NCBI RefSeq assembly: GCF_036670015.1
Contig: NZ_CP137636.1
Location: 970,501-1,034,500, forward strand
Direction: 5' to 3'
From: Niallia sp. XMNu-256
GTDB taxonomy: Bacteria; Bacillota; Bacilli; Bacillales; Cytobacillaceae
Length of the DNA stretch: 64,000 bases
The translations under genes were made by a program, and so were the position numbers. Below, piece by piece: positions 14,036 through 44,180 of this stretch; positions within the stretch are counted from its first letter, which is position 1, and every line of letters starts with the position of its first letter. The notes beneath the pieces are model-generated. The model made no database searches. It saw only the letters and a program-made list of their open reading frames with translations, and was not told the DNA's origin.

Positions 14036-14222
14036 TTTCAGGCTTAACGGGCAGTAAAATCCACAACTCAAGATACTGAGTAGAGATCAACTGTCCGGTA
14101 AAGCTCCGAAATAATGAACACAGACTAACTACGCCAGCGGCAACGTCTGCGTGACCAGCATGCTGCCGGCCTCAACTAACCATCAGTGGCAAAGAACTCC
14201 ACTGATAGAAGTTTCACTTTAT
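14036..14222 (+). repeat. Structured dispersed repeat, copy A
   Basis: The first of six related copies. It begins TCAGGCTTAACGGGCAGTAA and ends AAGTTTCACTTTAT. Shared blocks are AAAGCTCCGAAATAATGAAC, CGGCAACGTCTGCGTGACC and a terminal hairpin ATCAGTGG / CCACTGAT. It lies in the 432 bases between yhjD and the LCP gene and ends 22 bases before the LCP start, so an open frame from 14151 runs through its 3' part into the LCP gene. The remaining 14 kb-side gap (13812-14035) shows only AT-rich sequence. The copies are probably mobile or RNA-coding; see findings. Confidence 0.75.
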
Positions 14223-14243
14223 TTAGGGCGGGGATCTAGCGCA

Positions 14244-15194
14244 ATGAGATATGAAAAAAATCAAGAAAGAAAAAAATTAAAGAGAAGGCGAAAAAAGCGG
14301 AGATTACGGAAAGTTGTACTATTATTCTTTCTTCTCATCTTACTCTCGTTCGGATATGTTTTTATCCAGTACATACAGGGAATTAAAAATTCAATGGATG
14401 ATACCAATATCAATCAGATAGAATATGAATTTAACGGAAAGAAAGATCGTTATGGCGGTACAAATGTATTATTGATTGGGAGCGATTCAAGAGGAGAGGA
14501 TCGTGCACGCTCAGATACAATCATGGTTGCCCAATATCATCCTGAGAAACATTCTTACAAATTAATCTCAATCATGCGTGATACATATGTTGATATCCCT
14601 AACCATGGAAAAAATAAAATTAATACAGCCTTTGCAATAGGGGGGCCAGAGCTACTCCGGAAAACCATTAAAGAAAATTTTGATGTGGACGTCCAATATT
14701 ATGCGATTATTGATTTTGAAGGTTTTGTTCATTTAATTGATGAGGCTTTTCCAGATGGGGTCGAAATTGAAGTGGAAAAGGCGATGTCGAAATATATTGG
14801 AGTTACGCTTGAACCAGGACTACAACGTCTTGATGGAGAACATTTATTAGGGTATGTACGGTTTCGACATGATGCCATGGGTGACTTTAATCGAGTTGAG
14901 CGACAACAAAAAGCCTTAAAAGAAGTAGCTGCTCAATTTTCTTCGATCCAAACTTTAACGAAACTACCCAAATTAGTGGGAGTCGTAAAGCCATTTGTGA
15001 ATACAAACATGAATACATCAGATATTATTTATATAGGTAAAGATTATTTAACAAAGGATAATCGTAATATTGAGACACTAAGAATACCCGTAGATGGTGA
15101 ATATGAACCACAAAGAATTAGCGGAGTCGGAGAAGTATTACGGATCGACCTTGAAGCAAACAGCGAGGCCATTGAAACATTTTTAGAAAAGTAG
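14244..15194 (+). CDS. LytR-CpsA-Psr (LCP) family cell-wall glycopolymer ligase
   Basis: A 316-residue type II membrane protein. A basic cytoplasmic N terminus (KKLKRRRKKRRLRK) and one membrane segment (about residues 22-42) precede an extracellular LCP domain. That domain shows NVLLIGSDSRGEDRARSDTI, SIMRDTYVDIP, NKINTAFAIGG and GYVRFRHDAMGDFNRVERQQ, the Arg/Asp residues that bind polyprenyl pyrophosphate and Mg. LCP enzymes attach teichoic acids or capsule to peptidoglycan. ATG 14244 has a GGCGGGGA ribosome site; an upstream GTG in the same frame lies in repeat copy A and is not believed. It is not in the B. subtilis yhjD-yhjE interval as I remember it. Confidence 0.9.
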   Translation: MRYEKNQERKKLKRRRKKRRLRKVVLLFFLLILLSFGYVFIQYIQGIKNSMDDTNINQIEYEFNGKKDRYGGTNVLLIGSDSRGEDRARSDTIMVAQYHPEKHSYKLISIMRDTYVDIPNHGKNKINTAFAIGGPELLRKTIKENFDVDVQYYAIIDFEGFVHLIDEAFPDGVEIEVEKAMSKYIGVTLEPGLQRLDGEHLLGYVRFRHDAMGDFNRVERQQKALKEVAAQFSSIQTLTKLPKLVGVVKPFVNTNMNTSDIIYIGKDYLTKDNRNIETLRIPVDGEYEPQRISGVGEVLRIDLEANSEAIETFLEK

Positions 15195-15294
15195 TGAATG
15201 GACAGGACCTCTAAAGGCCCTGCTTATGAAAGTTCCACTAGATTTACTGGGGATCTGTCTTGCGAATTTGATTGTAGGGTAGGAGAAATTGTGA

Positions 15295-15918
15295 ATGGAA
15301 TTTGAGACATTAAAAGATTGGATAACACTTGAAAATATTATGGAACTTATACAGGAATACCGATCGTTTGGTCCCTTAGCGGGTATCCTATTGCCGATGC
15401 TTGAGGCATTTTTTCCATTTTTGCCATTGTTCTTATTTGTTATGGCTAATGCAAATGCCTTTGGACTTTGGTTTGGATTTATTTTTTCATGGGTTGGAGC
15501 CTGTATAGGTGCCTTATTTGTTTTTTGGATTGTGAGAAAATACGGTCGTAAACGAGCTTTGAACTTTTTAACAAAACATAAACAAGTTCAAAAATTAATG
15601 AAGTGGGTTGAACGTCATGGGTTTGGCCCTCTGTTTATTCTCCTATGTTTTCCATTTACACCATCGGCCATTGTCAATATTGTAGCTGGTCTCTCAAAAA
15701 TCAGTAGAAAACAATATATGTTGGCGGTCCTGAGTGGAAAGTTTGTAATGATATTTACAGTGAGCTTTATTGGACATGATATTCAATCTCTTTTAACCCA
15801 ACCATTCAGAACAGCTATTGTCGGTGTGGTTATTTTTATTCTTTGGTATGTTGGAAAGAGAATCGAAGTAAAGATAAATAAAGGTGCAGAAAAAGTACAA
15901 AGGCGACAAGAAGGTTAA
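15295..15918 (+). CDS. yhjE: TVP38/TMEM64 (DedA-like) membrane protein YhjE
   Basis: A 207-residue polytopic membrane protein with the VTT/SNARE-associated domain. The re-entrant family motif appears as FSWVGACIGALFVFWIVRKYG near residue 65, and LLCFPFTPSAIVNIVAGLSKI near residue 120. About five to six hydrophobic segments are present and the tail is basic. Members are implicated in lipid or undecaprenyl-phosphate translocation; this is family knowledge. ATG 15295 lies 9 bases after AGGAG. The signal-peptidase gene follows, the order of yhjE-sipV in B. subtilis. Confidence 0.85.
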   Translation: MEFETLKDWITLENIMELIQEYRSFGPLAGILLPMLEAFFPFLPLFLFVMANANAFGLWFGFIFSWVGACIGALFVFWIVRKYGRKRALNFLTKHKQVQKLMKWVERHGFGPLFILLCFPFTPSAIVNIVAGLSKISRKQYMLAVLSGKFVMIFTVSFIGHDIQSLLTQPFRTAIVGVVIFILWYVGKRIEVKINKGAEKVQRRQEG

Positions 15919-15990
15919 TGCAGAAAAACGATTAATAGAAAGTTGCAGTTTGTCATTTGTCTACAAAAATCTATTGAAAGTGTGATGCAT

Positions 15991-16545
15991 ATGAAAGAGG
16001 AGTTGAAAAAAGAAGGGATTGAATGGTTAAAGGCATTTGCGATCGGAACGGTTGTTTTCGTTTTTATTCGTACATTTTTCTTCTCTAATTATGTAGTTGA
16101 AGGAGAGTCAATGATGCCAACTCTCCAAGATGGAAACAAGCTCGTTGTAAATAAAATTGGTTATCAAATTGGGGATTTAAATCGGTTTGATGTGATTGTC
16201 TTTCATGCCAATCAGGAAGAGGACTATGTTAAGCGGATTATTGGGTTGCCCGGAGATCAGTTGGAATATCGTGATGATGTGCTGTATATTAATGGGAAAA
16301 AATACAAAGAACCGTATTTAGAGAAATATCGAAAAGAGGCTTTTGGCGGTCGTTTAACCGGTGATTTTACTTTATTAGAAATGACAGGTAAAGAAACGGT
16401 ACCTAAAGATCATATCTTTGTACTGGGAGATAATCGGCTTGGTAGTCGGGATAGCCGTGAATTTGGGTTTGTGTCTGTTGATCAAGTTGTTGGAAAGGTG
16501 GATCTACGTTATTGGCCCATCGATCAAATTGAGGTAACGTTTTAA
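15991..16545 (+). CDS. sipV: Type I signal peptidase (SipV-like)
   Basis: A 184-residue membrane-bound signal peptidase, which removes signal peptides from exported proteins outside the membrane. One N-terminal membrane segment (AIGTVVFVFIRTFFF) is followed by box B VEGESMMPTLQDGN with the catalytic Ser, box D YVKRIIGLPGDQ with the catalytic Lys, and box E GDNRLGSRDSREFG. All are intact. The start is uncertain: no strong ribosome site exists, and ATG 15985 or 15991 fit best. The frame is open from 15943. The symbol rests on synteny between yhjE and addB. Confidence 0.88.
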   Translation: MKEELKKEGIEWLKAFAIGTVVFVFIRTFFFSNYVVEGESMMPTLQDGNKLVVNKIGYQIGDLNRFDVIVFHANQEEDYVKRIIGLPGDQLEYRDDVLYINGKKYKEPYLEKYRKEAFGGRLTGDFTLLEMTGKETVPKDHIFVLGDNRLGSRDSREFGFVSVDQVVGKVDLRYWPIDQIEVTF

Positions 16546-16561
16546 TAACAATTTTGGCTTT

Positions 16562-16590
16562 TAGATTCGTGACGTGCGAATCTTTTTTTT
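16562..16590 (+). terminator. Terminator of the signal peptidase gene
   Basis: AGATTCG / CGAATCT stem with a GACGTG-type loop and eight T. The following 283 bases to addB hold no gene. TTGTTA with TATGAT about 16 bases later near 16830 could be the addB promoter. Confidence 0.88.
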
Positions 16591-16873
16591 GTTAAAGGCT
16601 GTTTTCGTAAAGTTTGTTGTTAAAATTTTAAGGCCAAATTTAACGTGGACATAGCTTTTTCCGGGCTTTGAATTCATTTTGCAGCTCTTTTCTCTTCTGA
16701 TAAAACTTGATACACAATATAAAAATAGATCAAACATCCTATTTTTCATGCTATAAGCAACAATGTCTGAGAAAAGAGCCTTGTTAAATGGAAGATAATA
16801 ATACCGAAAAGATAATAAAAGAGCTTGTTAAAATATGATAAGATAAAAAGGCAAACCTGAAAGGGGGAGAAAC

Positions 16874-19800
16874 ATGTCCGTTCGTCTAATCATAGGGAGA
16901 TCTGGAAGTGGAAAAACGACCCGTTGTCTCGATGAAATCAAAGCTAAATTAATGGAGAATCCGCAAGGAAATCCAATACTATATATTGTGCCAGACCAAA
17001 TGACTTTTTTATCGGAATATCAATTAGTGCAAACGCCTGAACTAGGTGGAATGATCCGCGCTCAAGTCTATTCTTTTACAAGGCTTGCGTGGAAAATCCT
17101 TCAAGAAACTGGCGGAATTAGTCGTTATCACTTGAATAGTACGGGAATCAGTATGTTAATTCAAAAAATAATTGAGGATAAAAAAGAAGAGTTGCATTTA
17201 TACAAACGTACGGCAGACAAAGCCGGTTTTATTAATCAAATGGAGCAAATGTTAATTGAATTTAAACGTTATTGTGTAGAGCCTCAAGAATTGATAGAGG
17301 TTGGTCAAAATGAATACAGCGGTAAAGTCTTAAAAGACAAGCTTCATGACTTACAGCTTATTTATGAAAATTTCGAAAGAGAACTAACGAATAAATATAT
17401 TGACTCAGAAGATTATTTTCGATTGTTATCAGAGAAGATTGGTGAATCGAAATTGCTGAAAGAAGCTGAAATTTATATAGACGGCTTTCATGGTTATACG
17501 CCGCAAGAATATATGATCATTGAAGGGTTAATGAAACATTGCCCCCAAGTAACTATTACCTTAACATTGGATAAACCATTTTACGGTCAAGGACCTGATG
17601 ACTTACATTTATTCCGTCTAACAGGTGAGAATTTTAGAACCTTAGTTGAAATGGCTAAAGTGAATGAATTGCCAGTTGAGGAAGTGCGATTAAAAGGACA
17701 AAAGAGATGGGGAAATTCTGCTTTACAGCATCTTGAAGCTTATTTTGACACAAGACCGGCCAAGACGTACAATGGCGACCATTCAATTTATATGGCAGAG
17801 GCTGTAAATCGCCGGGCTGAAATTGAAGGGGTTGCTCGGCAGATAAGACACCTTGTTTATAAAGAAAATTATCGCTATCGTGACATTGCAATCCTGATGA
17901 GAAATGGTCAAGATTACCAAGAAATAATCGAAACGATTTTTGGTGATTATGAAATTCCTTATTTTATTGATCAAAAACGAACGATGTTACACCATCCATT
18001 AGTTGAACTTATACGTTCTGTCCTTGAAATAATTAACAGTAATTGGCGATATGAACCCGTATTTCGAGCAATAAAAACAGAACTCTTATTCCCGTTTGGC
18101 CAAAATGTTGAAAAGCTACGGGAACAAATGGATCTTCTCGAAAATTACGTATTAGCCTATGGGATCAAAGGCGATAAGTGGATTAAAAGGGAGCGATGGA
18201 AGTATCGCCGAGTTCGTGGTTTAGAATTGGAAAATGTTGCACAAACGGATAAGGAAAGACAGATCGAACAAATTTTAAATGAATTACGTTTAATGATTAC
18301 AGCACCAATTCTTCGCTTATCAAGAAGATTGAAAAAAGCTGAAAGTGGCCGTCAGTTGGGAGAAGCTCTTTATTTGTTTATCGAGGAATTAGATATTCCT
18401 GTAAAGTTGGAAAGCTGGAAAACGATCCAAGAAGAAAAAGGCAATCTTGTTAAAGCTCGAGAACATGATCAGGCTTGGAATGCAATTATTGACATTCTCG
18501 ATCAATTTGTTGAAATTTTAGGGAATCAATCCATTTCTCTACCTGCATTTTTAAAAATAATGGAGGCTGGTTTAGAATCGCTACGATTCTCACTTGTTCC
18601 ACCTGCCATGGATCAAGTGTTAGCAGGTGATTTAGAAAAATCCAGATTATCTAGTGTAAAGGTTGCCTTTGTCATTGGAATGAATGAAGGGGTCCTGCCA
18701 AAAAAGTTCACAGATGATGGAATTCTGGCTGATGAAGACCGTGAGAAAATCATTGTTAGTGGGCTAAAAATTGCACCATCAAGCAGATCTAGATTACTAG
18801 ATGAAGAGTTTCTAGCGTATATGGCGTTCACGACTCCATCGGATCAACTATACATTAGCTATCCACTTGCTAATGAAGAGGGAAATGCGTTAATGCCTTC
18901 TCTTTATATTAAAAGAATCCAAGACTTATTCCCGAATTACACAAGGCTTGTTTATATGACAGATCCAAATGAAACGATTGAGGTAGATCAATTATCCTAT
19001 ATCTCTCATGAAAATAGAAGTCTATCCTATTTAACATCTCAGCTGCAGATGAAAAAGCGTCAATATCCTGTAGCAGACTTTTGGTGGGATGTTTATAACT
19101 GGTATGTCGAAGGGCCAAAGAAAGAGACAGCTCTCAGGGTGCTATCTAGTTTAACTTATAAAAATGGAGCTAAGCGATTACCGAACGAGTTGAGTCAAGA
19201 ACTTTATGGAGATCATATTCAAGCAAGTGTTTCAAGAATGGAGCTGTTTCACAGCTGTCAATTTTCTCATTTTGCTCATCATGGCCTCAAGCTTCGCGAA
19301 CGTCAAATGTTTCGTTTGGAGGCGCCAGATATAGGAGAGCTTTTCCATTCTGCCTTAAAGCATATTGCCCAAACCGTTATGGACAGTCAATTATCTTGGT
19401 CTGAATTAACGAGAGAACAGTCTGAAAGGTTAGCAAAAGAGGCAGTAGAAATATTAGCTCCAAAGCTGCAGAATGAAATTTTATTAAGTTCCAATCGTCA
19501 CGCTTATATTATGAGAAAGCTCCAGCAAATCATTACTCGGGCTTCGATTATTTTAAGTGAGCATGCGAAGGCCAGCGGCTTTACTCCGGTAGGATTAGAA
19601 GTTGATTTCGGACCGAAAAAGGAATTGCCGCCATTAACGTTTAAATTGCGCAATGGAACAAATATGCAGCTTGTAGGCAGAATTGACCGAGTCGATAAAG
19701 CAGAGGATGAAAATGGTGTTTATTTAAGGATTATTGATTATAAATCAAGTGCCCAAGAGCTCAACCTTGCTGAAGTTTATTATGGAGTTGCATTGCAAAT

Positions 19801-20359
19801 GCTAACGTATTTGGATATTATCCTTCATCATTCCAAGGAGCTTATTGGGCAAGAAGCCATACCTGCAGGTGTCCTTTATTTCCATGTGCATAATCCAATG
19901 CTAAATGCGAAGAAAATTATGACGATAGAAGATATTGAAAATGAGCTGTTTAAAAAGTTTAAAATGAATGGACTTGTTTTAGGTGAAGAAAATGCCGTCC
20001 AATTAATGGATTTAAGTTTGGATGCCGGATCAACATCTAATATTGTTCCCGCAAAAATGAATAAAGACGGAAGCTTTTCTAAACAATCAAAGATTGCTAG
20101 TAAGCAAGAGTTTAGTACAATTAGCGAGTACTTACACCATTTATATGTTAAAACGGGGAATGCGATTACAGAAGGCAATGTAGCCATCTCTCCTTATAAG
20201 TTAAAAGATCGGACCCCATGTACATTTTGTAGTTTTAAATCCTTTTGTCAATTCGATGACTCGATGGAGGAAAATCAATATCGTTTGCTTGTTCCAAGAT
20301 CTAAAGATCAAGCAATTCAAATGATGGAGAAGGAGGTTGCAGATAATGACGACAAATAG
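16874..20359 (+). CDS. addB: ATP-dependent helicase/nuclease subunit B
   Basis: A 1161-residue subunit of the AddAB recombination complex, the Bacillus equivalent of RecBCD, which resects double-strand breaks to Chi sites. The N-terminal GRSGSGKTTRCL is the Walker A of its (non-translocating) helicase domain. The C-terminal RecB-like nuclease shows GRIDRVDKAEDE and LRIIDYKSSAQ. The iron-sulfur staple is visible as one Cys in MELFHSCQFSHFAHHG near residue 793 and three in RTPCTFCSFKSFCQFD near 1125. ATG 16874 has an AAGGGGGAG site. It overlaps addA by 14 bases. Confidence 0.96.
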   Translation: MSVRLIIGRSGSGKTTRCLDEIKAKLMENPQGNPILYIVPDQMTFLSEYQLVQTPELGGMIRAQVYSFTRLAWKILQETGGISRYHLNSTGISMLIQKIIEDKKEELHLYKRTADKAGFINQMEQMLIEFKRYCVEPQELIEVGQNEYSGKVLKDKLHDLQLIYENFERELTNKYIDSEDYFRLLSEKIGESKLLKEAEIYIDGFHGYTPQEYMIIEGLMKHCPQVTITLTLDKPFYGQGPDDLHLFRLTGENFRTLVEMAKVNELPVEEVRLKGQKRWGNSALQHLEAYFDTRPAKTYNGDHSIYMAEAVNRRAEIEGVARQIRHLVYKENYRYRDIAILMRNGQDYQEIIETIFGDYEIPYFIDQKRTMLHHPLVELIRSVLEIINSNWRYEPVFRAIKTELLFPFGQNVEKLREQMDLLENYVLAYGIKGDKWIKRERWKYRRVRGLELENVAQTDKERQIEQILNELRLMITAPILRLSRRLKKAESGRQLGEALYLFIEELDIPVKLESWKTIQEEKGNLVKAREHDQAWNAIIDILDQFVEILGNQSISLPAFLKIMEAGLESLRFSLVPPAMDQVLAGDLEKSRLSSVKVAFVIGMNEGVLPKKFTDDGILADEDREKIIVSGLKIAPSSRSRLLDEEFLAYMAFTTPSDQLYISYPLANEEGNALMPSLYIKRIQDLFPNYTRLVYMTDPNETIEVDQLSYISHENRSLSYLTSQLQMKKRQYPVADFWWDVYNWYVEGPKKETALRVLSSLTYKNGAKRLPNELSQELYGDHIQASVSRMELFHSCQFSHFAHHGLKLRERQMFRLEAPDIGELFHSALKHIAQTVMDSQLSWSELTREQSERLAKEAVEILAPKLQNEILLSSNRHAYIMRKLQQIITRASIILSEHAKASGFTPVGLEVDFGPKKELPPLTFKLRNGTNMQLVGRIDRVDKAEDENGVYLRIIDYKSSAQELNLAEVYYGVALQMLTYLDIILHHSKELIGQEAIPAGVLYFHVHNPMLNAKKIMTIEDIENELFKKFKMNGLVLGEENAVQLMDLSLDAGSTSNIVPAKMNKDGSFSKQSKIASKQEFSTISEYLHHLYVKTGNAITEGNVAISPYKLKDRTPCTFCSFKSFCQFDDSMEENQYRLLVPRSKDQAIQMMEKEVADNDDK

Positions 20360-24116: not shown

Positions 24117-24117
24117 G

Positions 24118-24155
24118 AAAAACGGTAGGTGTAGACTCTCCTACCGTTTTTTTTT
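24118..24155. terminator. Bidirectional terminator between addA and gerPF
   Basis: AAAACGGTAGG / CCTACCGTTTT stem with a T-rich tail on the plus strand and A-rich on the other side, located between convergent genes. Confidence 0.9.
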
Positions 24156-24372
24156 AATTGTTTCCAACGTTAGGTTGGTCAATTAAGTTTGTATCAAAAT
24201 GATTGGTTGCACTTATTCCATTGTTTGCCATGACGAATCCGGCAGTATTTGCAGCACCTGAACCTAAAGTTGATTTTGTATTACTTTTAGGTGAGATATT
24301 TAATGCATCACCAAATTGTACATTTCCTCCACCAATGTTAACAATTTGTGTCTGACCAACAAATGCAGGCAT
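24154..24372 (-). CDS. gerPF: Spore germination protein GerPF
   Basis: The last gene of the gerP operon, 72 residues. GerP proteins are made in the mother cell and help nutrients pass the spore coat to the inner-membrane germinant receptors. The protein starts MPAFVGQTQIVNIGGGNVQFGD and has the NTAGF and Asn/Asp-rich C-terminal features shared with GerPA, its paralogue at the other end of the operon. The ATG at 24372 has a GAGGAGGATT ribosome site, 13 bases after gerPE. Confidence 0.93.
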   Translation of the reverse strand: MPAFVGQTQIVNIGGGNVQFGDALNISPKSNTKSTLGSGAANTAGFVMANNGISATNHFDTNLIDQPNVGNN

Positions 24373-24385
24373 AATAATCCTCCTC

Positions 24386-28750: not shown

Positions 28751-28966
28751 CGATAAAGTGAAACTTCCATCAGTGGGGGTTTTCTTTCATCCCCCACTGA
28801 TGGTTAGTCACGCAGAGCCTGATTGATTTATCTAAGGGCTAAAGCCCAAAGATAAATCTTATTTCACCAATCGGAGCTTTACGGGCAGTTGATCTCCCAC
28901 CTAACTTCTTTTATTTTACTCAGAATCTTGAGATGGGGGGCTTACTGCCCGTTAAGTCTGATAAAA
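28751..28966 (-). repeat. Structured dispersed repeat, copy E
   Basis: A minus-strand copy and the best paired of the six. Read on the minus strand, ACGGGCAGT pairs with ACTGCCCGT. AAAGCTCCGATTGGTGAA follows, then a copy-specific hairpin (AAGATTTATCTTTGGGC with a complementary arm). A terminal hairpin CCATCAGTGGGGG / CCCCCACTGATGG and AAGTTTCACTTTATC end the copy. The middle segment differs from copies A-D, so this copy has swapped or re-evolved its second stem. Confidence 0.75.
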
Positions 28967-33852: not shown

Positions 33853-33963
33853 CAATAAAGTGAAATTTCCATCAGCAGAGGTTTTTCTTCATCCCCCACC
33901 TATCCTTATTATCCATAGAATCTTGAGATGGGGGTCTTGGTCCGTTAAACCTGATAAAAACCC
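33853..33963 (-). repeat. Structured dispersed repeat, copy F (deleted)
   Basis: A minus-strand copy reduced to about 110 bases. It keeps the 5' block (TTATCAGGTTTAACGGACC, then CCCCCATCTCAAGATTC) and the 3' block (CATCAGC hairpin remnant and ATTTCACTTTAT). The whole central stem region is missing. It lies in the gap 33729-34034 between a coat-like gene and the molybdenum hydroxylase gene. A possible terminator (AGCTCAGTCATATTGAACTG with T-run, near 33816-33848) precedes it. Confidence 0.65.
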
Positions 33964-36350: not shown

Positions 36351-36457
36351 GGATTAATCTTTTAATCCCTATAAACTGTTCTTCTTGTAAGAATACTTCC
36401 GATTAACACTTTGTACTGTGAATTACAAGGGATAGGGTTTTCAAGTAGAAAGGCTGG

Positions 36458-38263
36458 GTGGTAAGGATAATGGGTTCAGTAGAATTAAGTGCCATTGTAA
36501 GCACCCGAAGTATTAAATCCTTTGAATATGAGCCTCATGGAAAAAGAGTCAGTTTTATTACTGATCGGCAAGGGTCTGCGCAGGTTTGGGGATATGAAAT
36601 AGGCAATAGAAGGGCACAAACTCCCTTGCTCCAAGAAGGAATAACCTTTATTAAATATGTTGATGTAACATCAGATTTAATAATTGGGAGAGATGAGTCC
36701 GGAAATGAAAGGATCCAATTATACTTACTGAAAGAAGCTGGTAAATTAATTCCTTTAACAGATTCTCCGCAGCACGTTCATTTGTATGGAGGTAGCTCCC
36801 CTGATGGTAAGTGGATTGCCTGGTCCAGTAACCGACGAAACCAAGCCTTTTTTGACATTTATTTACAGAGCCTTGAGACACTGGAGATTCGTCTTGTTTT
36901 TGCTTCTGACGGGCAATATACGGTTGAAGCATGGTTTCCTGATGGGAAATCATTATTGGTCAGTAGAATGAATTCGCCCCTTGATAATGATTTGGGCATT
37001 TTATCCCTTTTAACGGGTGAGGTGAAATGGATAACTGAACATTCAGGAGAAGCAGGTTTTAAGGATGTTCATTTTAATCAAAAAGCCGATCATCTATATC
37101 TATTATCAAATAAAGACAGGGAATTTTATGGCCTTGCTTGTTTAGATTTGCATACCTTTCAGCTTACATGGCTTGAACAAGGTAATTGGGATTTTGAAGG
37201 ATTGGCGATGAATGAACAGAAGAATTTGTTAGCTTTTAGTATGAACGAGGCAGGAATATCTAAAGGTTATTTAGTAGATTTAAAGAGTAGTACGCTTAAA
37301 ACATGGGGAACACCCATGGGAGTAATCAAAAATCTTAGATTTTCACCAGATAGTGAAAGGCTGCTCTTTTTATTAAACGGACCTGCTCATCCACCTGAAA
37401 TTTGGGAGCTGAATCTTCATACCCTTAAAGTTGATACGCACTTATCCTTTTCAGATCAGTCTTTCTTAAAAAAGATACTAGTTGAGCCTGTACCCATTTA
37501 TTATCGTTCATTTGATAACCTGCTTATCCACTCTTTCTACTATAAGACTAAAAATACAGGAAAAAAGTTTCCGGTGGTCATTTATATTCATGGAGGTCCA
37601 GAGAGTCAAAGCCGTGCTGCTTTTAATCCTTTATTGCAATACTTATTAAATATTGGGTATTCCGTGGTAACGCCAAATATCCGAGGGAGTACAGGATTTG
37701 GAAAAACGTACTCTCATCTAGATGATGTTCGGAATCGGATGGATGCGGTAAAGGACCTGATTTGTTTAGTAAATTGGCTTAAAAGGGAAACGAATGTCGA
37801 TCCTGGTAAGGTTGCAGTAATGGGAGGAAGCTATGGAGGATTTATGGTGCTTGCTGCCATTAGCCACTATCCTCAACTGTGGGCAGCAGCCGTTGATATT
37901 GTAGGGATGTCAAGCCTTCGATCATTTCTCAAAACAACAAGTCCTTGGAGGAAAAAGAACAGAGAGAAAGAATATGGAACGATTGAAAAAGATGGAGACT
38001 TTTTTGATCGGATTGATCCATTACATTATGCAGATTATATAGAATCACCACTCTTGGTCGTACATGGTGTAAATGACCCGCGAGTACCGATTGTAGAATC
38101 CGAGCAGATCATTAAGAAATTAATGAAACGAAATCATCCTGTTACATTTATTCGCTTAGAGGATGAGGGACATACATTAGAAAAAGAAAAAAATCAGTTA
38201 TTTATCTATTCACAAATAGCTGATTTCCTTGAAAAATCCATGAAACGAAATCGATTCTACTAA
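36458..38263 (+). CDS. S9 family prolyl oligopeptidase-like serine peptidase
   Basis: A 601-residue cytoplasmic peptidase of the acylaminoacyl-peptidase group. Residues 1-340 form a beta-propeller with repeats such as DGKWIAWSSNRRNQAFFDIY, and residues 360-600 are the alpha/beta-hydrolase domain. The nucleophile is in VAVMGGSYGGFMVLAAI, the Asp in VVHGVNDPRVPIVESEQ and the His in LEDEGHTLEKEKN, so the triad is complete. The GTG at 36458 and ATG at 36470 are both possible starts. It sits between subunits of the molybdenum hydroxylase, with 107 bases to the large-subunit gene, and may share its transcript. Confidence 0.9.
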   Translation: MVRIMGSVELSAIVSTRSIKSFEYEPHGKRVSFITDRQGSAQVWGYEIGNRRAQTPLLQEGITFIKYVDVTSDLIIGRDESGNERIQLYLLKEAGKLIPLTDSPQHVHLYGGSSPDGKWIAWSSNRRNQAFFDIYLQSLETLEIRLVFASDGQYTVEAWFPDGKSLLVSRMNSPLDNDLGILSLLTGEVKWITEHSGEAGFKDVHFNQKADHLYLLSNKDREFYGLACLDLHTFQLTWLEQGNWDFEGLAMNEQKNLLAFSMNEAGISKGYLVDLKSSTLKTWGTPMGVIKNLRFSPDSERLLFLLNGPAHPPEIWELNLHTLKVDTHLSFSDQSFLKKILVEPVPIYYRSFDNLLIHSFYYKTKNTGKKFPVVIYIHGGPESQSRAAFNPLLQYLLNIGYSVVTPNIRGSTGFGKTYSHLDDVRNRMDAVKDLICLVNWLKRETNVDPGKVAVMGGSYGGFMVLAAISHYPQLWAAAVDIVGMSSLRSFLKTTSPWRKKNREKEYGTIEKDGDFFDRIDPLHYADYIESPLLVVHGVNDPRVPIVESEQIIKKLMKRNHPVTFIRLEDEGHTLEKEKNQLFIYSQIADFLEKSMKRNRFY

Positions 38264-38362
38264 CATTAAAATCTAATGATTAATGGGATAAGGTATGAAC
38301 AGGTTAATGGTGTGAAACAAGCATCACTGTGTAAATATTGATTCTTCTTTCCACATTGCCTA

Positions 38363-38371
38363 CATACAATA
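38363..38371 (+). promoter_or_regulatory. Sigma-K-like -10 element before the tandem-repeat coat gene
   Basis: CATACAATA, identical to the gerP -10, lies 30 bases before ATG 38402. A matching -35 was not found. Confidence 0.45.
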
Positions 38372-38401
38372 AGGTTGAAATGACTTAAGGAGGCGACAAA
38401 A

Positions 38402-38911
38402 ATGGCACAACCATTTTTTGATGAAAGAAGTATGGGATATGGGACTCAGCCGGGCTATGGGGCTGGCTATGGCATGGGCCATGGGGGATATCCAGGAGGC
38501 TATGGCATGGGCCATGGGGGATACCCGGGAGGATACGGCATGGGCCATGGAGGATATCCAGGAGGCTATGGCATGGGCCATGGAGGATATCCAGGAGGCT
38601 ATGGAATGGGCCATGGGGGATACCCGGGAGGATACGGCATGGGCCATGGAGGATATCCAGGAGGCTATGGCATGGGCCATGGAGGATACCCAGGAGGATA
38701 CGGCATGGGCCATGGGGGATACCCAGGAGGATACGGCATGGGCCATGGAGGATACCCAGGAGGATACGGCATGGGCCATGGGGGATACCCAGGAGGTTAT
38801 GGAATGGGCCATGGAGGATCTCATGGCTTTGGAACTAGCAGCACACAGCCAACCCAGCATCAATCGTATGCGCAACAGCCAGGGCGCGATGATTTTGATT
38901 ATGAACTTTAA
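38402..38911 (+). CDS. GYGMGHGGYPG tandem-repeat protein, probable spore coat
   Basis: A 169-residue protein. After a 21-residue N terminus (MAQPFFDERSMGYGTQPGYG) come ten perfect copies and one changed copy of the 11-residue unit GYGMGHGGYPG, then a Ser/Thr/Gln tail ending in GRDDFDYEL. Gly, Tyr and His dominate. The composition and a sigma-K-like -10 element point to a coat or exosporium role. The ATG has AAGGAGG at 8-base spacing. The gene interrupts the molybdenum hydroxylase set. Open frames on the other strand and in +2 are artefacts of the 33-base repeat. Confidence 0.75.
   Translation: MAQPFFDERSMGYGTQPGYGAGYGMGHGGYPGGYGMGHGGYPGGYGMGHGGYPGGYGMGHGGYPGGYGMGHGGYPGGYGMGHGGYPGGYGMGHGGYPGGYGMGHGGYPGGYGMGHGGYPGGYGMGHGGYPGGYGMGHGGSHGFGTSSTQPTQHQSYAQQPGRDDFDYEL
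38465..38827 (+). repeat. Tandem 33-base repeat array, 11 units
   Basis: In-frame repeats within the coat-like gene. Units differ only at silent positions (ggatac/ggctat, ggggga/ggagga, ccgg/ccag), in mosaic combinations, which suggests recent unequal exchange or replication slippage. Confidence 0.9.
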
Positions 38912-39100
38912 GTAGAAATGGAAACCGAATAATAAATGTGTATTATTTTTATAATATAAAAATGGAGGAAGCTGTTCTGTACTATATATGCTTATTAAAA
39001 GTTTGTAGGAGAAGCTCAGGCTGTGCTTTACTGAGCTCTTTTTTTGCTTTTTCTATGAGGTAGATTGATGTTCATCTAATTTAACAAGGAGGGCAGATTC

Positions 39101-39949
39101 TTGATCTCATACGACTTCGAGTATTATCTTCCGATATCCATTAAAGAAGCAGTCCAATTATATGAGGATTTACAAAAGAAAGGAAAGGATCCGATTTATT
39201 TTTCAGGAGGAACAGAAATCATTACGCTAGGAAGATTAAATGCTGTAAAGACCGGGGCCGTCATTGATATTAAAGGGATACCAGAATGTAGAACATTCCA
39301 AACTCATAAGGAGCATTTATTAATTGGTGCAGCTACTACCTTGACTGATATCGAAGAGAGGAATCCTTTTCCATTATTAAGTAAAACCGTTAGTGAGATT
39401 GCTGATCGGACGGCCAGAAATAAAATTACAGCAGGTGGGAATATTTGCGGACAAATTTTTTATCGGGAAGCAGTCCTGCCTTTTTTATTATGTGATAGTG
39501 AAATGGTGATTGCGGGCTTAAACGGAATCAAAACTGTACCCATAAACGAAATTTTTAATGAAAAGCTTTTATTAGAACGCGGTGAATTACTTGTCGGAAT
39601 TAAAACGGATATAAGCTATCTTGAACTACCATATGTCAGTATAAAAAGAAGAAGGCAATGGAATACAGGTTACCCACTTATTACTGTTGCGGCTTTAAAG
39701 GTTAATGGAAATATCAGAATAGCTATAAGCGGTCTGACTTCCTATCCATTTCGTTCTAAGCAGATGGAAGAGCAGCTTAATAACAAGGGGTCTTCTTTAC
39801 ATCAGAGAATTGATGAGGCAATCCAAACTTTAACGGTACCGCCCTTAGATGATTCAGAAGGATCTTTTCAATATCGATTATTTGTATTAAAGAATACACT
39901 ACATGATGTGTTTCGCCAACTAGAAGGAGAGGAGCAAGACAATGTCTGA
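39101..39949 (+). CDS. Molybdenum hydroxylase FAD-binding subunit
   Basis: A 282-residue medium subunit, CoxM/PucC-like, passing electrons from the 2Fe-2S centres to FAD. The flavin-binding signatures are FSGGTEIITLGRLN near residue 36 (phosphate loop) and TAGGNICGQIFYREAVLPFLL near residue 111. The C-terminal CO-dehydrogenase-flavoprotein domain follows (SIKRRRQWNTGYPLITVAAL). The TTG start at 39101 has AAGGAGGG at 8-base spacing. It overlaps the small-subunit gene by 8 bases. Its partners are the small subunit next door and the large subunit at 34035. Confidence 0.88.
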   Translation: MISYDFEYYLPISIKEAVQLYEDLQKKGKDPIYFSGGTEIITLGRLNAVKTGAVIDIKGIPECRTFQTHKEHLLIGAATTLTDIEERNPFPLLSKTVSEIADRTARNKITAGGNICGQIFYREAVLPFLLCDSEMVIAGLNGIKTVPINEIFNEKLLLERGELLVGIKTDISYLELPYVSIKRRRQWNTGYPLITVAALKVNGNIRIAISGLTSYPFRSKQMEEQLNNKGSSLHQRIDEAIQTLTVPPLDDSEGSFQYRLFVLKNTLHDVFRQLEGEEQDNV

Positions 39950-40415
39950 CGCTTTGAGTGTAAGTACAATCCTAGTGGTCAATGGGGAAGAAAAGAGAGT
40001 AATTTTCCGTTATGCTGATATTCTATTAGATGTTTTGCGTTATCAATTAGGTCTTACAGGTGCCAAGCCTGGTTGTCTAAATGGAGATTGCGGTGCATGT
40101 ACGGTAAACATCAATGGTGTCTCACAAAAGTCTTGTTTGACCTTAGCTGTTGAGGCCATCGGCAAGGACATCCTTACAATTGAGGGACTAAATGATCCTA
40201 TTCAAGGGGCCTTTGTTGATCAATTTGCTTTTCAATGTGGATATTGTACGCCAGGGTTTATTATGAATTGCCATTCCTTATTGGAGCATCGTAAAGATCC
40301 TTCTAACCATGAAATTAAGAAATGGCTGGAGTCTAACATTTGCCGCTGTACGGGATATTTGGAAATTGAGGAGGCGGTTAAATCAGCGCTCCATTTATCA
40401 AAAAAACATAAATAA
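39942..40415 (+). CDS. Molybdenum hydroxylase 2Fe-2S subunit
   Basis: A 157-residue small subunit with two [2Fe-2S] centres. The plant-ferredoxin-type cluster is CLNGDCGACTVNINGVSQKSC near residues 45-65. The second, helical cluster is FQCGYCTPGF with ESNICRCTGYLEIEEAV near residues 98-145. All eight Cys are present. The ATG at 39942 lies inside the end of the FAD-subunit gene, with AAGGAGAGGAG upstream. It is the last structural gene of the hydroxylase; XdhC-type maturation factors are not in this window. Confidence 0.9.
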   Translation: MSDALSVSTILVVNGEEKRVIFRYADILLDVLRYQLGLTGAKPGCLNGDCGACTVNINGVSQKSCLTLAVEAIGKDILTIEGLNDPIQGAFVDQFAFQCGYCTPGFIMNCHSLLEHRKDPSNHEIKKWLESNICRCTGYLEIEEAVKSALHLSKKHK

Positions 40416-40752
40416 GGGGGTAATAGGAACATTAAGTGAATATATACGTATGATACGAATATCGTTTAGAAACTTGACCCATAATAAAGGAGAAAAAAAT
40501 AAAAACAGCGATTAAAGAAAATCCCCCCATCTGATCCTATATCCTTCATAACAAACATATTTTCCAACCTCTCTATATAAATAGCTATGTATATAAACCA
40601 ATTGATAACTTGGAAGGAGTTAAAGCTTATTTACTTAGAAATTAATAAGGCAACTTTTAACTTTCTTAATCTTGTTAGACTGTTACAGGAACCTATAGGC
40701 CTCTTATCGCATATAGTACCGATAAGATACATGATAGAAGGGTGTTTTTAAA
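40416..40752. other. 337-base gene-free stretch before the second gerP-like operon
   Basis: No gene is supported. Apart from the sigma-K-like promoter at 40689-40718, it shows AT-rich sequence with several imperfect palindromes (for example around 40441-40465) but no strong terminator after the 2Fe-2S gene. Confidence 0.5.
40689..40718 (+). promoter_or_regulatory. Sigma-K-like promoter of the GerPA/GerPF-like operon
   Basis: AAC at 40690-40692, 17 bases, then CATATAGTA (CATAnnnTA) at 40710-40718. The start codon of the first gene is 34 bases downstream. Confidence 0.6.
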
Positions 40753-41031
40753 ATGCCGTCAGTTGTCATTAATTTACATTACTTAAAGATCAATAGTATT
40801 TCAGGTAATGGTTCCATCACAATTGGTGAAGCATCTTACAATAGTCCAACAGCTTATAACAAATCCCAAGGAATGAATGCTTCTTACGGAGATACATCAC
40901 CAACCGAAGCCTTCATGGAGAATTTATTAAATGATCCTGATGTGAACGATCAAACAAATATTGGAAATGCCGATAACGCTTATATGAGTACACCTGTGCC
41001 ACCCCCACCGCCAATACCACCAACTTATTAA
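40753..41031 (+). CDS. GerPA/GerPF family spore protein
   Basis: A 92-residue protein with the GerPA/GerPF pattern: MPSVVINLHYLKINSISGNG, then SITIGEASYNSP, an Asn/Ser-rich middle, DQTNIGNADN, and a Pro-rich tail (PVPPPPPIPP). It is not part of the canonical gerP operon, which is complete at 24-26 kb. It heads a three-gene unit with a second family member and an Hsp20-like protein behind a sigma-K-like promoter, so a coat function late in sporulation is inferred. No typical ribosome site other than AAGGGTG upstream of ATG 40753. Confidence 0.75.
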   Translation: MPSVVINLHYLKINSISGNGSITIGEASYNSPTAYNKSQGMNASYGDTSPTEAFMENLLNDPDVNDQTNIGNADNAYMSTPVPPPPPIPPTY

Positions 41032-41045
41032 AGGAGTAACTTAAT

Positions 41046-41288
41046 ATGCCATATCAAATAAATATTTTTAATATAAAGGTCAATGGAGCTAATCAGAACG
41101 GAAATATAGATATAGGACCTACTGTCCATAACAGTCACACAGCTAATAGTAAGTATGTGGGTGCTAATTTTTCTTTAGGAGATTTTTCACCACCATCGGC
41201 TATTTGGGGCTCGGGAAACTTGGATACAGATATTAGTGACCAAGATCAAATCGGTAACCCATCTATGCCAATTGCCAACCAGCTATAA
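41046..41288 (+). CDS. Second GerPA/GerPF family spore protein
   Basis: An 80-residue paralogue of the preceding gene. It begins MPYQINIFNIKVNGANQNGN and continues IDIGPTVHNSHTANSKYVG, with DQDQIGNPSM near the end. The ribosome site AAAGGAG is well placed before ATG 41046, 14 bases after the first gene, and 12 bases separate it from the Hsp20-like gene. It could associate with its neighbour or with GerP components in the coat; that is inference from family and context. Confidence 0.75.
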   Translation: MPYQINIFNIKVNGANQNGNIDIGPTVHNSHTANSKYVGANFSLGDFSPPSAIWGSGNLDTDISDQDQIGNPSMPIANQL

Positions 41289-41300
41289 AGGAGCAGAAAC

Positions 41301-41726
41301 ATGGATATAGAAAAAATGAGAAAGTGGTTGGAAATTACAAATGAATACAAAAAAACAGACTTTTGGACTCGAGTACTCCAAGAAAGATATCCTAATGAAA
41401 ACATCAAGGAAGATAAGTACCAACCCAAATGTGATATGTATCAAAATGAAAGTTATAACTTTATTATTATTGAAATACCGGGTGTGACTCGTGAAAATCT
41501 TTCCTTAAGCTTAATTTCAAATACACAGCTAAAAATTAACGGAAAATGTCAGCCTATTTTCCTGCTAGAAAAGGAAATTAGAAGAGAAAGAGTGTATGGA
41601 GACTTCCAGCGAATCATTGATCTTCCTGAACCGACAAAGCCTGAACTGATGCATATTCAAATCGATAACGGGTTACTACTGGTTTCGTATCCTAGACAAA
41701 CTGTAGAACCAATAAAATTAATTTAA
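41301..41726 (+). CDS. Hsp20/alpha-crystallin-like protein, probable spore component
   Basis: A 141-residue small-heat-shock-type protein. The alpha-crystallin domain runs from MYQNESYNFIIIEIPGVTRE at about residue 46 to the end, with ISNTQLKINGKC and the RRERVYGDFQRIIDLPE segment; the usual A-x-x-x-n-GvL motif appears as IDNGLLLVSYP. Bacillus spores contain divergent Hsp20-like proteins (CotM, CotP, GerT), and I compare it with those. It ends the three-gene operon. A role in coat or germination is inferred from its GerPA-like partners. Confidence 0.78.
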   Translation: MDIEKMRKWLEITNEYKKTDFWTRVLQERYPNENIKEDKYQPKCDMYQNESYNFIIIEIPGVTRENLSLSLISNTQLKINGKCQPIFLLEKEIRRERVYGDFQRIIDLPEPTKPELMHIQIDNGLLLVSYPRQTVEPIKLI

Positions 41727-41750
41727 TATAAAGAAACATAATAATAAAAA

Positions 41751-41790
41751 TGCCAAGCACTCTTCCGAGAGGACGATGCTTGGCACTTTT
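41751..41790. terminator. Bidirectional terminator after the Hsp20-like gene
   Basis: TGCCAAGCA / TGCTTGGCA stem with loop and TTTT, between convergent genes. The plan resembles the hairpin at 30789. Confidence 0.85.
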
Positions 41791-41792
41791 CA

Positions 41793-42287
41793 TTAGCGAT
41801 AATTAACAAATTGCACATCGACAGTCAAATCTGCTTCTTTCACTGCTTGGATGATTTTTTGTAAGTCATCACGGCTTTTTGCTGTTACACGGATTTGATC
41901 ATCTTGTAATTGGCTTTTCACTTTTAGTCCGCTGTTTTTAATAAGGGTGTTAATTTTTTTAGCGTTCTCTTTATCGATTCCTTGGACAAGCTTAGCCCTT
42001 TGTCGAACCGTACCGCCACTAGCTTTTTCAACTTTGCCATAATCAAGGTTTTTAACAGGCACTCCACGTTTGATGAGTTTGCTAAATAACACGTCTTTTA
42101 CTTGATCTAATTTGTACTCATCATCTGAAACAAGCACAAGTTCTTCTTTATCAAGTGAAATGTCACTTTTACTGCCTTTAAAATCATAACGTGTTTGAAT
42201 TTCTTTCATTGCAATTTGAATTGCATTCGTTACTTCTGAAAAATCAACGTTTGATACAATATCAAATGAACTTTCTTTTGCCGCCAT
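41793..42287 (-). CDS. yitK: YajQ family nucleotide-binding protein
   Basis: A 164-residue YajQ-family protein with two duplicated RNP-like half domains. It has [20 protein letters not shown] and [20 protein letters not shown] near the N terminus, [20 protein letters not shown] in the centre, and [20 protein letters not shown] at the C terminus. Relatives bind nucleotides, and some bind c-di-GMP. ATG 42287 is used; the frame continues to GTG 42299 but GGAGG then overlaps it. The adjacent cvfB/yitL-like gene matches yitK-yitL order in B. subtilis. Confidence 0.9.
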
Positions 42288-42310
42288 ATGAACCTCCACT
42301 TATCTATATT

Positions 42311-42525
42311 TATCAGGCTTAACGAGCAGGAAGACCTTCCACCTTAGGATGCTGATTACAATAAAAAAGATGGGTGGGGATCAACTCCTGTAAAGCTCCG
42401 AAATAATGAACACAGACTGATTACACTACGGCAACGCCTGCGTGACCAGCATGCTGCTAGCTTCAGCTAACCATCAGTGGGGGTGTGAAAGAACTCCCCT
42501 CTACTGATGAAAGTTTCACTTTATC
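42311..42525 (+). repeat. Structured dispersed repeat, copy B
   Basis: A plus-strand copy between yitK and yitL. It begins TATCAGGCTTAACGAGCAGG and ends AAGTTTCACTTTATC. It contains AAAGCTCCGAAATAATGAAC, GGCAACGCCTGCGTGACCAG, and a terminal hairpin CATCAGTGGGGG / CCCCTctACTGATG. The outer stem is weakened, but the inner stem CCACC / GGTGG is kept. The gap 42288-42678 otherwise contains AT-rich sequence with a possible yitL promoter. Confidence 0.75.
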
Positions 42526-42678
42526 ATTCTTTTCATCCATTTGGAGATAATAGAAAGAAGTTTCCCTTTACAAACCAATTATAGTAAAATAAACCAGTCG
42601 ATACAACCTTTGGACAATGCTCAATCTTCTAGATGAATGATTGAAGAAAAAACAACAAACCTTTAAGGAGGGATTTGA

Positions 42679-43548
42679 GTGGCAATACAAGATCATATTG
42701 GTCAAGTGATTACCTTAAAAGTAACCAGACAAACGGAGTTCGGTTACTTTTTAACGGATGGAACAGAAGATATTCTTTTACATAATAATGAAGTGCATCG
42801 CGAATTAGAAAGTGAAGAAGATGTGGAAGTCTTTTTATATACAGATTCACAGGGAAGAATTGCAGCGACAACAACGATACCGAAAGTAACAGTAGGAACT
42901 TATGATTGGGCAACTGTTACTGATATGAAACAAGGGCTAGGTGTATTTTTGGATATTGGTATTCAAAAAGATATGCTTCTGGGGAAAGAGGATCTTCCCG
43001 TTCATAAAAGTGTTTGGCCTGATATAGGGGATATGCTGTTTATTACTTTACGGGTAAATAAAAATAATCGAATCTATGTTAAAACAGCGACTGATCCAAT
43101 TATTGAGGAACATTCGGTCAAGGCCACAAGGGAGATTTTTAACAAATCGGTTCATGGTTTTATTTATCGAACAGCTAAAGTGGGTTCATGGATTTATACT
43201 GTAGAAGGCTATAAAGGCTTTATCCATGAGTCACAGCGAGATGTAGAACCTCGTCTTGGTGAAAAGGTAGAAGGCAGGGTCATTGATGTGAAGGAAGATG
43301 GCACGATAAATGTGTCTTTACTACCTAGAAAGCACGAGGCACTGGATAAGGATGCGGAAGAAATCTTGTCCATTCTTCAAGCAAGAGGTGCGATGCCATA
43401 CTGGGATAAAAGTATGCCTGAAGACATCCAAGAGCGGTTCAATATGAGTAAAGCTGCATTTAAAAGGGCGTTAGGAAGATTAATGAAAGAGGGAATGATC
43501 TATCAAGAAGAAGGATGGACATATTTAAAAAAAGAAAATGCGGAATAA
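42679..43548 (+). CDS. yitL: S1-domain RNA-binding protein (CvfB/YitL family)
   Basis: A 289-residue cytoplasmic protein of the CvfB family. There are three S1-like domains (residues about 1-60, 65-130 and 150-215: KVGSWIYTVEGYKGFIHESQ and GEKVEGRVIDVKEDGTINVS) and a C-terminal winged helix (SILQARGAMPYWDKSMPEDI; MSKAAFKRALGRLMKEGMIY). CvfB controls virulence gene expression in Staphylococcus through RNA; no target is known here. The GTG at 42679 follows AAGGAGGG. It lies beside yitK as in B. subtilis. Confidence 0.88.
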   Translation: MAIQDHIGQVITLKVTRQTEFGYFLTDGTEDILLHNNEVHRELESEEDVEVFLYTDSQGRIAATTTIPKVTVGTYDWATVTDMKQGLGVFLDIGIQKDMLLGKEDLPVHKSVWPDIGDMLFITLRVNKNNRIYVKTATDPIIEEHSVKATREIFNKSVHGFIYRTAKVGSWIYTVEGYKGFIHESQRDVEPRLGEKVEGRVIDVKEDGTINVSLLPRKHEALDKDAEEILSILQARGAMPYWDKSMPEDIQERFNMSKAAFKRALGRLMKEGMIYQEEGWTYLKKENAE

Positions 43549-43570
43549 TATCTGCATCAATCTTTCTACG

Positions 43571-43760
43571 TTATAACAGGCAGAAAAACCCTACATCAAG
43601 AGTAAAGTGAATAGAGATAGGTAGGGGTTTAACTGCCTGTAATGTATTGATAAATGAACGTAGACTAAGTATGCCTGCGGCAACGTCTACGTGACCAGTT
43701 TTCACTGGCTCTAACTAACGATCAGTGGAAACCCCTCACCGATGGGAGTTACACTTTATA
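43571..43760 (+). repeat. Structured dispersed repeat, copy C
   Basis: A divergent copy that keeps pairing by compensatory changes: ACAGGCAG / CTGCCTGT (outer), CCCTAC / GTAGGG (inner), ACGTAGAC / GTCTACGT (second stem). It then has CGATCAGTGG with a CACCGATGG arm, and GAGTTACACTTTATA. Its last bases overlap the stop codon of the minus-strand DUF3941 gene. Confidence 0.75.
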
Positions 43761-43887
43761 AATGGTCTGTTTTCTTTGAGTATTGGTGTTTACCAGCTTT
43801 ACGATTTTTTTCTCTCATCATATTCTTTTCATGGCGAAGGGCATTATTGTCCTTTGCTTTTTTGTCATTGTCAGATGTATGAGGCAT
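43756..43887 (-). CDS. DUF3941 family small protein
   Basis: A 43-residue, highly charged, Lys/Asn/His-rich protein: MPHTSDNDKKAKDNNALRHE, then KNMMREKNRKAGKHQYSKKT and DHL. I recognise it as the DUF3941 family, small proteins of spore-formers with unknown function. The start ATG at 43887 has AAAGGAGATTC upstream. Repeat copies C and D flank the gene in the same orientation (C overlaps its stop codon). It is not linked by transcription with its neighbours. Confidence 0.78.
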   Translation of the reverse strand: MPHTSDNDKKAKDNNALRHEKNMMREKNRKAGKHQYSKKTDHL

Positions 43888-43967
43888 ATAATGAATCTCC
43901 TTTCCTTTATCCTTCTCTTGTAGTATGAGTGTTAAGGAAAAGAGTATGTTAGTGAGTTTTTACCAAC

Positions 43968-44180
43968 TTATCAGGCTCAACAGCAGTAAGAGCTCAACCT
44001 CAAGGTTCTGAGTACAATATTAGAAGATAGTTGGGGATAACAGCTGCCGTAAAGCTTCAAAATAATGAACCCAGACTTAATGCGCGTACGGCAACGTCTG
44101 TGTGACCACTAAGCCTGGGCTGGCCTTGGGCTTTCCATAGTTAGGGGATGAAAGAAAATCACCACTGATAAAGTTGCCAT
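43968..44180 (+). repeat. Structured dispersed repeat, copy D
   Basis: A plus-strand copy ending a base or two before the stop codon of the minus-strand degV gene. It begins TTATCAGGCTCAACAGCAG. It has CAAC / GTTG in the inner stem, CAGAC / GTCTG in the second stem, GGCAACGTCTGTGTGACC, and the degraded terminal hairpin CATAGTTAGGGG with CACTGATAAAGTTGCC. Together with copy C it brackets the DUF3941 gene. Confidence 0.7.

Follow-up and report, generated by a model that had tools for sequence, protein, structure and literature searches.

What kind of genetic element recurs six times, each time as a foldable sequence, within a 64,000-nucleotide stretch of Niallia sp. XMNu-256 (contig NZ_CP137636.1, positions 970,501 to 1,034,500; hereafter the window)? 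A first-pass annotation had listed six copies, A to F, with compensatory changes in their stems, and had offered a non-autonomous IS200/IS605-like element or a dispersed RNA regulator as explanations. We find all six copies present, with coordinates within a few bases of those it gave, and they belong to a mobile element that we refer to here as the hairpin element. The reading we favor, with a probability of roughly 0.64, is that it is a non-autonomous miniature element of the bcr1 type, moved in trans as single-stranded DNA and spread over the Bacillales. It is probably the same kind of element as bcr1 of the Bacillus cereus group.

Mobility and anatomy of the hairpin element

The element measures about 155-160 bp, with a core of about 158 bp between two TTTAT motifs. 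Three hairpins follow one another in it: a long one on the left, a tiny one in the middle, and one on the right that ends in AAGTTTCACTTTAT. The element is mobile: three genomes of the same genus lack copies B, C and D, and a copy in another genus (genome G010) splits a gene with one TTTAT. The three genomes (G001, G002 and G003) are all those of the genus that align there, G004 having given no match, and the empty sites lie in intergenic DNA that is otherwise diverged. In G001 a single TTTTT stands at the place of copy B, which in the window is bounded by TTTAT on either side; G003 carries its own separate insertion in that intergenic region. The gene split in G010 is of the PDDEXK_2 family; its halves match profile positions 10-100 and 106-191, leaving exactly five residues between them, as expected for one TTTAT in register. 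Two of the 16 copies tested, in G010 and G020, have sides that stay open for at least 50 amino acids in one frame through a single TTTAT; in the second, the left piece resembles a tRNA threonylcarbamoyladenosine dehydratase and the right piece found no match. All 13 near-identical copies inspected in G010 run from TTTAT to TTTAT between unrelated flanks (10 are cores of 159-160 bp, and three bear modules and measure 214, 214 and 268 bp), while the tandem arrays of G029 consist of 151-155-bp units that share one TTTAT, with seven identical units in one array.

An ordinary miniature inverted-repeat transposable element (MITE) whose DDE transposase makes a 5-bp TTTAT duplication would likewise carry TTTAT on either side and show a single TTTAT at its empty site, and passages of PMC3446304 and PMC3733652 do call bcr1 MITE-like. 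We nevertheless regard this explanation as unlikely, given that the ends show no terminal inverted repeats by eye (the left end reads TTTATCCCGC and the right end, reversed, ATAAAGTGAAAC), that the hairpins covary strongly and that the copies are oriented relative to the replication fork, as described below.

In its left part the core consists of TTTAT-C, the left hairpin with outer stem ACGGGCAGT/ACTGCCCGT and inner stem CCCACCT/AGGTGGG, and then TAAA; in its right part it consists of the small hairpin TTGGT-TCA-ACTAA, the right hairpin CAATCAGTGGGGG/CCCCCACTGATTG and the terminal AAGTTTCACTTTAT. By eye, this TAAA, placed at the left hairpin's 3' foot, hardly varies and might pair with TTTA. 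We built two covariance models, R1 for the left end (97 positions) and R2 for the right end (54 positions), from copies of the host genome, those of the window included. The window copies are as follows.

14034..14222, plus strand: copy A, whole element, left end TTTTT and right end TTTAT; covariance models match both ends (left 14034-14111, right 14176-14222)
14109..14169, plus strand: loop module of copy A, Rfam RF01690 (Bacillaceae-1), 45.9 bits
28753..28965, minus strand: copy E, whole element, the top-scoring copy within the window and the best kept
28869..28965, minus strand: left-end hairpin of copy E, outer stem ACGGGCAGT/ACTGCCCGT, 109 bits
28808..28868, minus strand: loop module of copy E, a different hairpin of TTTATCTTTGGGCTTTAGCCC type (by eye), which occurs in G010 too
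28753..28807, minus strand: right-end hairpin of copy E with terminal AAGTTTCACTTTAT, 83.9 bits
33855..33958, minus strand: copy F, internally deleted to 104 bp with both ends kept; covariance-model matches at 33874-33958 (left) and 33855-33909 (right)
42309..42524, plus strand: copy B, complete element, missing from this site in G001, G002 and G003; covariance-model matches at 42309-42403 (left) and 42467-42524 (right)
42401..42460, plus strand: loop module of copy B, Bacillaceae-1-like, 26.9 bits, below the gathering score
43563..43759, plus strand: copy C, complete element whose left end is of the variant TTTCTACGTTATAAC, missing from this site in G001-G003; covariance-model matches at 43563-43652 (left) and 43715-43759 (right)
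43649..43708, plus strand: loop module of copy C, RF01690 (Bacillaceae-1), 37.5 bits
43967..44185, plus strand: copy D, decayed, absent from this place in G001-G003; left hairpin 43967-44062 (63.5 bits) and degenerate right end 44131-44185 (13.3 bits, E 0.57)

Copies A, B and C are complete but slightly altered, and two ends are non-standard, in that copy A begins with TTTTT instead of TTTAT and copy C finishes with GTTACACTTTAT. The element exists in a short form, which is the core (159 bp at locus L042), and a long form with a module in the middle. Among 100 paired copies of the host genome, the left-end and right-end models are separated by exactly 7 nt in 14 cases and by 48-70 nt in 81, and 85 of the 186 spans that we extracted, some of them nested in arrays, are 150-169 bp long. 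The modules occupy the loop of the small hairpin. At gathering scores, Rfam recognizes only the middle of copies A and C, as Bacillaceae-1, and does so for the loop module, not over the whole element; B and D give weaker matches, and the cores from L042 and L304 have no Rfam match at gathering. Bacillaceae-1 occupies the loop at 28 loci of the host genome, where 28 of the 38 RF01690 matches fall within 200 bp of a hairpin-element match. The frequent carriage of Bacillaceae-1 inside element loops changes how the genomic distribution of that Rfam family is to be read. A second, hairpin-type module, GGGCTTTAGCCC, is shared by copy E and G010 and is in tandem in some cases. The first-pass statement that no named family fits was thus half correct: RF01690 accounts for the module, and in size and TTTAT ends the core is similar to bcr1.

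Two further observations concern the modules. In L202 (1891-2380) and L171 (2773-3155) the middle loop holds four and two tandem hairpin modules, respectively, and the loop of the right hairpin bears additional Bacillaceae-1-like modules (by eye, with an RF01690 match in L171). Stand-alone Bacillaceae-1 copies without element ends occur in the host genome at L001, L002 and L009, and by eye L001 and L009 adjoin rRNA genes.

The compensatory changes reported for the stems are real, exceeding shuffles within the host genome and being strong across 45 elements from many genera. By eye, the outer stems are indeed ACGGGCAGT/ACTGCCCGT in copy E and ACAGGCAG/CTGCCTGT in copy C; the second stem, CAGAC/GTCTG in A and D against TAGAC/GTCTA in C, can be seen as well, but it belongs to the loop module and not to the core. 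A full-length copy elsewhere in the host genome (L013) folds far better than its shuffles, with z of -9.7 as RNA and -10.9 as DNA. In the alignment of 45 elements, two-sided changes affect 19 of 35 base pairs and 93.5% of 1556 cells pair; 74 cells are two-sided compared to 19.6 in shuffles (0 of 500 as high) and 7-17 in slid controls, and the swaps include GC to UA and AU, AU to UA, CG to GC, and AU to CG. These elements were chosen by end patterns with mismatches, one per locus and 148-170 bp long, with five hand-picked additions, a choice that favors well-kept copies. The shuffles (control a) ignore relatedness, and the slid controls were computed alongside them. Within the host genome the signal is modest: 18 copies yield 16 two-sided cells against 8.1 in shuffles with 12.2% of cells unpaired, and their RNAalifold consensus fold has almost no covariation term. 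When distinct rows were fitted to the covariance models, the 71 left-end rows gave 33 two-sided cells against 13.7, but at 9 pairs against 8.7, and the 78 right-end rows gave 18 against 6.9.

Orientation along replication and the route of movement

The copies mostly point along replication, which suggests that they jump as single-stranded DNA. The GC skew of stretches fetched from the host genome flips between 2.15 and 2.29 Mb, and with the terminus set at 2.2 Mb and the origin at the contig start (another version was computed with the terminus at 2.1 Mb), the TTTAT strand runs along the fork, and hence on the lagging-strand template, for 101 of 138 right ends and 101 of 131 left ends. Among the matches listed for other genomes the trend is the same, with 40/45 along replication in G029, 46/68 in G064 and 26/36 in G020 (largest contig) when the terminus is taken as half of the contig. 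Passages of PMC5371812 report that the orientation of IS200/IS605 elements recapitulates the direction of replication, and replication-linked orientation is described for IS608 and ISDra2 in parts of PMC5371812 and PMC6006769.

The orientation of neighboring genes was considered as a cause of this bias and is ruled out by the classes of flanking genes. For 76 of the 138 copies, namely those with fetched flanks and mostly the best scoring, and with plain open reading frames taken as genes, elements lie along replication in 10 of 11 cases where both flanking genes oppose the fork, in 14 of 14 convergent and 2 of 2 unclassified cases, in 18 of 30 where both genes run with the fork, and in 13 of 19 divergent cases. 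A stricter cut on the reading frames gives 20/31 with the fork, 7/7 against it, 13/13 convergent, 9/15 divergent and 8/10 unclassified. Genes thus do not drive the bias, weak as it is where they diverge or follow the fork; between co-directed genes, 19 copies are sense and 22 antisense. A second candidate, the supply of target motifs, was likewise rejected: intergenic DNA of the window holds 50 TTTAT and 68 ATAAA, counts that do not favor the observed strand.

A single-stranded intermediate and an HUH-type enzyme supplied in trans would be the most likely means of movement, judging from these combined features. In such a scheme, the end hairpins would fold on the strand that reads TTTAT...TTTAT, and a transposase provided from elsewhere would recognize them in the single-stranded DNA of the lagging-strand template and cut at TTTAT. 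The element would then be joined beside a second TTTAT, again on a lagging-strand template, so that each end has one TTTAT, and its loops would tolerate extra folded modules, such as Bacillaceae-1, carried as passengers. With covarying end hairpins, one directional TTTAT and a gene-independent orientation along replication, replication-coupled single-strand transposition is now a testable claim, and it concerns a very common repeat family of the Bacillales.

Some of the same evidence would suit movement through RNA, in which a folded transcript is reverse-transcribed into lagging-strand DNA in the manner of group II introns without endonuclease. A fork-linked orientation would be expected on this route too, as for endonuclease-less group II introns, the structure covaries, and the left stems show an excess of G-C to G-T over G-C to A-C changes (129 versus 47, counted as cells and not as independent events). 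Parts of PMC3446304 place 50.9% and 40.0% of bcr copies, 18 families taken together, in the mRNA of two B. cereus strains. In the right stem, however, the same comparison (46 versus 34 cells) reveals no clear excess; copies stop precisely at TTTAT with no tail, their orientation ignores neighboring genes, and no reverse transcriptase was seen, though no search was aimed at one. We therefore think this route rather improbable.

The first-pass alternative of a dispersed regulator, that is, a functional RNA kept for its transcript with mobility as a side issue, touches the element only at the loop module, which in some copies is Rfam Bacillaceae-1. The covariation would be compatible with such an RNA. 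Against it stand the decay of many copies in the host genome, the lineage-specific positions of B, C and D, the gene-splitting copy in G010, the indifference of orientation to flanking genes and the frequency of cores without a module (the 14 of 100 paired copies with the 7-nt gap), which together make this explanation very unlikely. Least probable of all, in our judgment, is a tyrosine recombinase acting on a folded single strand by site-specific recombination, as happens at integron attC sites. Hairpins and tandem arrays would be in keeping with it, and a passage of PMC6542083 mentions a site-specific recombination-like mechanism in connection with the TTTAT motif linked to the mobility of B. 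cereus repeats (bcr). By eye, conserved core sites of the attC kind are not present at both of the element's ends.

Relation to known systems and the search for an enzyme

The affinity with bcr1, one of the group A B. cereus repeats bcr1-bcr3, lies in size, the TTTAT motif, high copy number, structure and MITE-like character, and is drawn from descriptions of bcr1. The 2004 study of Okstad is said to give bcr1 as about 155 bp with a TTTAT at each end. The hairpin element shares both features, being bounded by TTTAT in 13/13 of the G010 copies and having array units of 151-155 bp, and its positions vary among relatives, to judge from the empty sites and the split gene. A table in PMC2267715 lists bcr1 sizes of 147 from the literature and 167 from its own model, and PMC8725734 treats bcr1 as well. 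The two differ in range, since bcr1 is reported from the B. cereus group only (it is presented as specific to that group in the title of Okstad 2004) whereas the hairpin element occurs in over twenty other genera; loop passenger modules and orientation along replication are features on the side of the hairpin element. Among the titles listed in our literature searches, none concerned a family of this kind beyond the B. cereus group. The 149-kb contig of G077, which may not belong to the B. cereus group, holds no significant match to the element, and plasmid and phage searches with the element returned no B. cereus-group record among the matches listed. An AddA bait aimed at mislabelled chromosomes likewise gave none of that group, and a TnpA bait counted 8 Bacillus records.

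Non-autonomous derivatives of IS200/IS605 are named PATEs. The hairpin element behaves like this family, as the first-pass annotation had suggested, in its subterminal hairpins, its short directional target, its lack of terminal inverted repeats and its orientation along replication; membership in the family is not supported, as neither tnpA nor tnpB was found inside or beside hairpin-element copies. The left hairpin of IS608 is much shorter than that of the hairpin element. The REPIN/RAYT system offers another parallel, in that a Y1 enzyme acting in trans is held responsible for moving its small hairpin repeats, but the hairpin element lacks a GTAG- or CGTC-type tag by eye, and the RAYT-like genes among the 33 Y1 loci described below had only chance-level right ends nearby. 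Similarity to Bacillaceae-1 RNA (RF01690) is confined to the loop module, and stand-alone RF01690 copies lack the element ends.

A full tnpA/tnpB copy with the same ends was looked for and not found. Neither in the host genome nor, by eye, at 122 other loci does a paired left and right end hold a gene-sized interior of its own; the nominal 1.2- and 4.9-kb gaps in the host genome arise where the left end used has a nearer right end, and the long spans among those extracted are by eye tandem arrays, neighboring copies, chance right ends and noncoding modules. Baits consisting of one TnpA, one TnpB and one RAYT had no match in 218 loci, mostly around copies. The suggested omega-RNA-like origin was dropped because no TnpB was found beside copies, a result obtained with one bait and no positive control in the set. 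At 33 Y1 loci (29 of relatives and four of the host genome, RAYT-like ones included), where right ends alone were searched, right ends within about 1.5 kb were at chance level, with a best E of 0.068. The ends of seven Y1 elements of G029 bear no likeness to the hairpin element, and at another ten Y1 loci inspection covered the region before the gene.

Several points weigh against the single-strand reading. Taken alone, the orientation bias is not significant where genes run with the fork or diverge, and the gene-based test rests on plain reading frames and those 76 of 138 copies. Other transposon families also show replication-linked orientation (passages of PMC5371812), and Bcr1 figures among MITEs described with terminal inverted repeats in part of PMC3733652, which the hairpin element does not have. 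For the guide-to-target pairing of IS608, the hairpin element offers a possible counterpart at most, in the TAAA noted above. No transposase with these ends was found in the loci and genomes searched, and G016 and G020 have no PF01797 (Y1) match at E<=0.001 yet contain 53 and 43 right ends. Nor is the presence of Y1 linked to copy number: PF01797 matches occur in 51 of 61 genomes, comprising 11/13 rich genomes (those with ten or more right-end matches) and 40/48 others, while the IS91-type Y2 family (PF04986) occurs in 4/13 rich and 2/48 other genomes. The Y2 counts hint at another enzyme, and may reflect chance or kinship.

Most of the 29 copies compared in G016 and G020 are diverged, the nearest copy being 65-98.7% identical, and a Y1 enzyme that acted in trans and was later lost is a possible fit to these two genomes. 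In G010 and G029, many Y1 matches accompany identical copies (by eye). A more tentative proposal, which we consider possible, is that the Bacillales at large carry replication-coupled single-strand hairpins served by an enzyme outside the known Y1 and Y2 transposases, with loops that would dock nested structured mobile modules.

Some Y1 genes of the host genome are recorded here in their own right. Degenerate ones lie at G000:C1:528724-529062, 748453-748775 and 830574-830932, and L063 (1087-1881, at about 3.80 Mb) encodes an intact RAYT-like Y1 protein of 264 amino acids, with no right end within 1.5 kb of the gene.

Copy number and range

Genome-wide extraction by covariance model, the course that the first-pass annotation had proposed, bore out a dispersed family: at E<=0.001 the host genome has at least 138 right ends and at least 131 left ends, all on one 4.2-Mb contig, from scoring 150 of 2992 right-end and 150 of 2256 left-end candidates. 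Merging yields about 165 loci, a few left-only matches being partial and perhaps due to chance, and for 100 of the 138 right ends a left end is found no more than 400 bp upstream. Among the 61 genomes searched, the host included, 29 have R2 matches, from 1 to at least 94 per genome. R2 also has matches in 5 of 5 named genomes, which were chosen because they bear the element, and in 7 of 19 genomes of the Ectobacillus family, the Ectobacillus genome among them. A pattern search for the right end recovered at least 120 stretches, and 79 of the 80 listed with names are labelled Bacillales, representing over twenty genera that include Niallia, Cytobacillus, Peribacillus, Neobacillus, Lysinibacillus, Oceanobacillus, Sporosarcina, Psychrobacillus, Metabacillus and Lederbergia.

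Provirus contigs carry the element as well, in a 158-bp version on L364 and L366 and a shortened version on L365. The L364 copy adjoins a gene of the heterocycloanthracin/sonorensin family, and L364 and L365 had no match among the phages or plasmids searched. These three contigs may hold bcr1 itself, the sonorensin-family neighbor hinting at the B. cereus group.

A few scattered occurrences complete the survey. One short contig with the right-end pattern is labelled Modestobacter and is perhaps a contaminant, and a right-end match lies at 221560-221631 of the Klebsiella grimontii plasmid record CP079755.1, which is possibly mislabelled or contaminated. Two IMG/VR contigs contain one copy with both ends (L246:9085-9308) and one short remnant (L247:10063-10105). 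Finally, two to three neighboring element matches are found at about 67560-68068 of the Pseudalkalibacillus hwajinpoensis plasmid NZ_CP156675.1.

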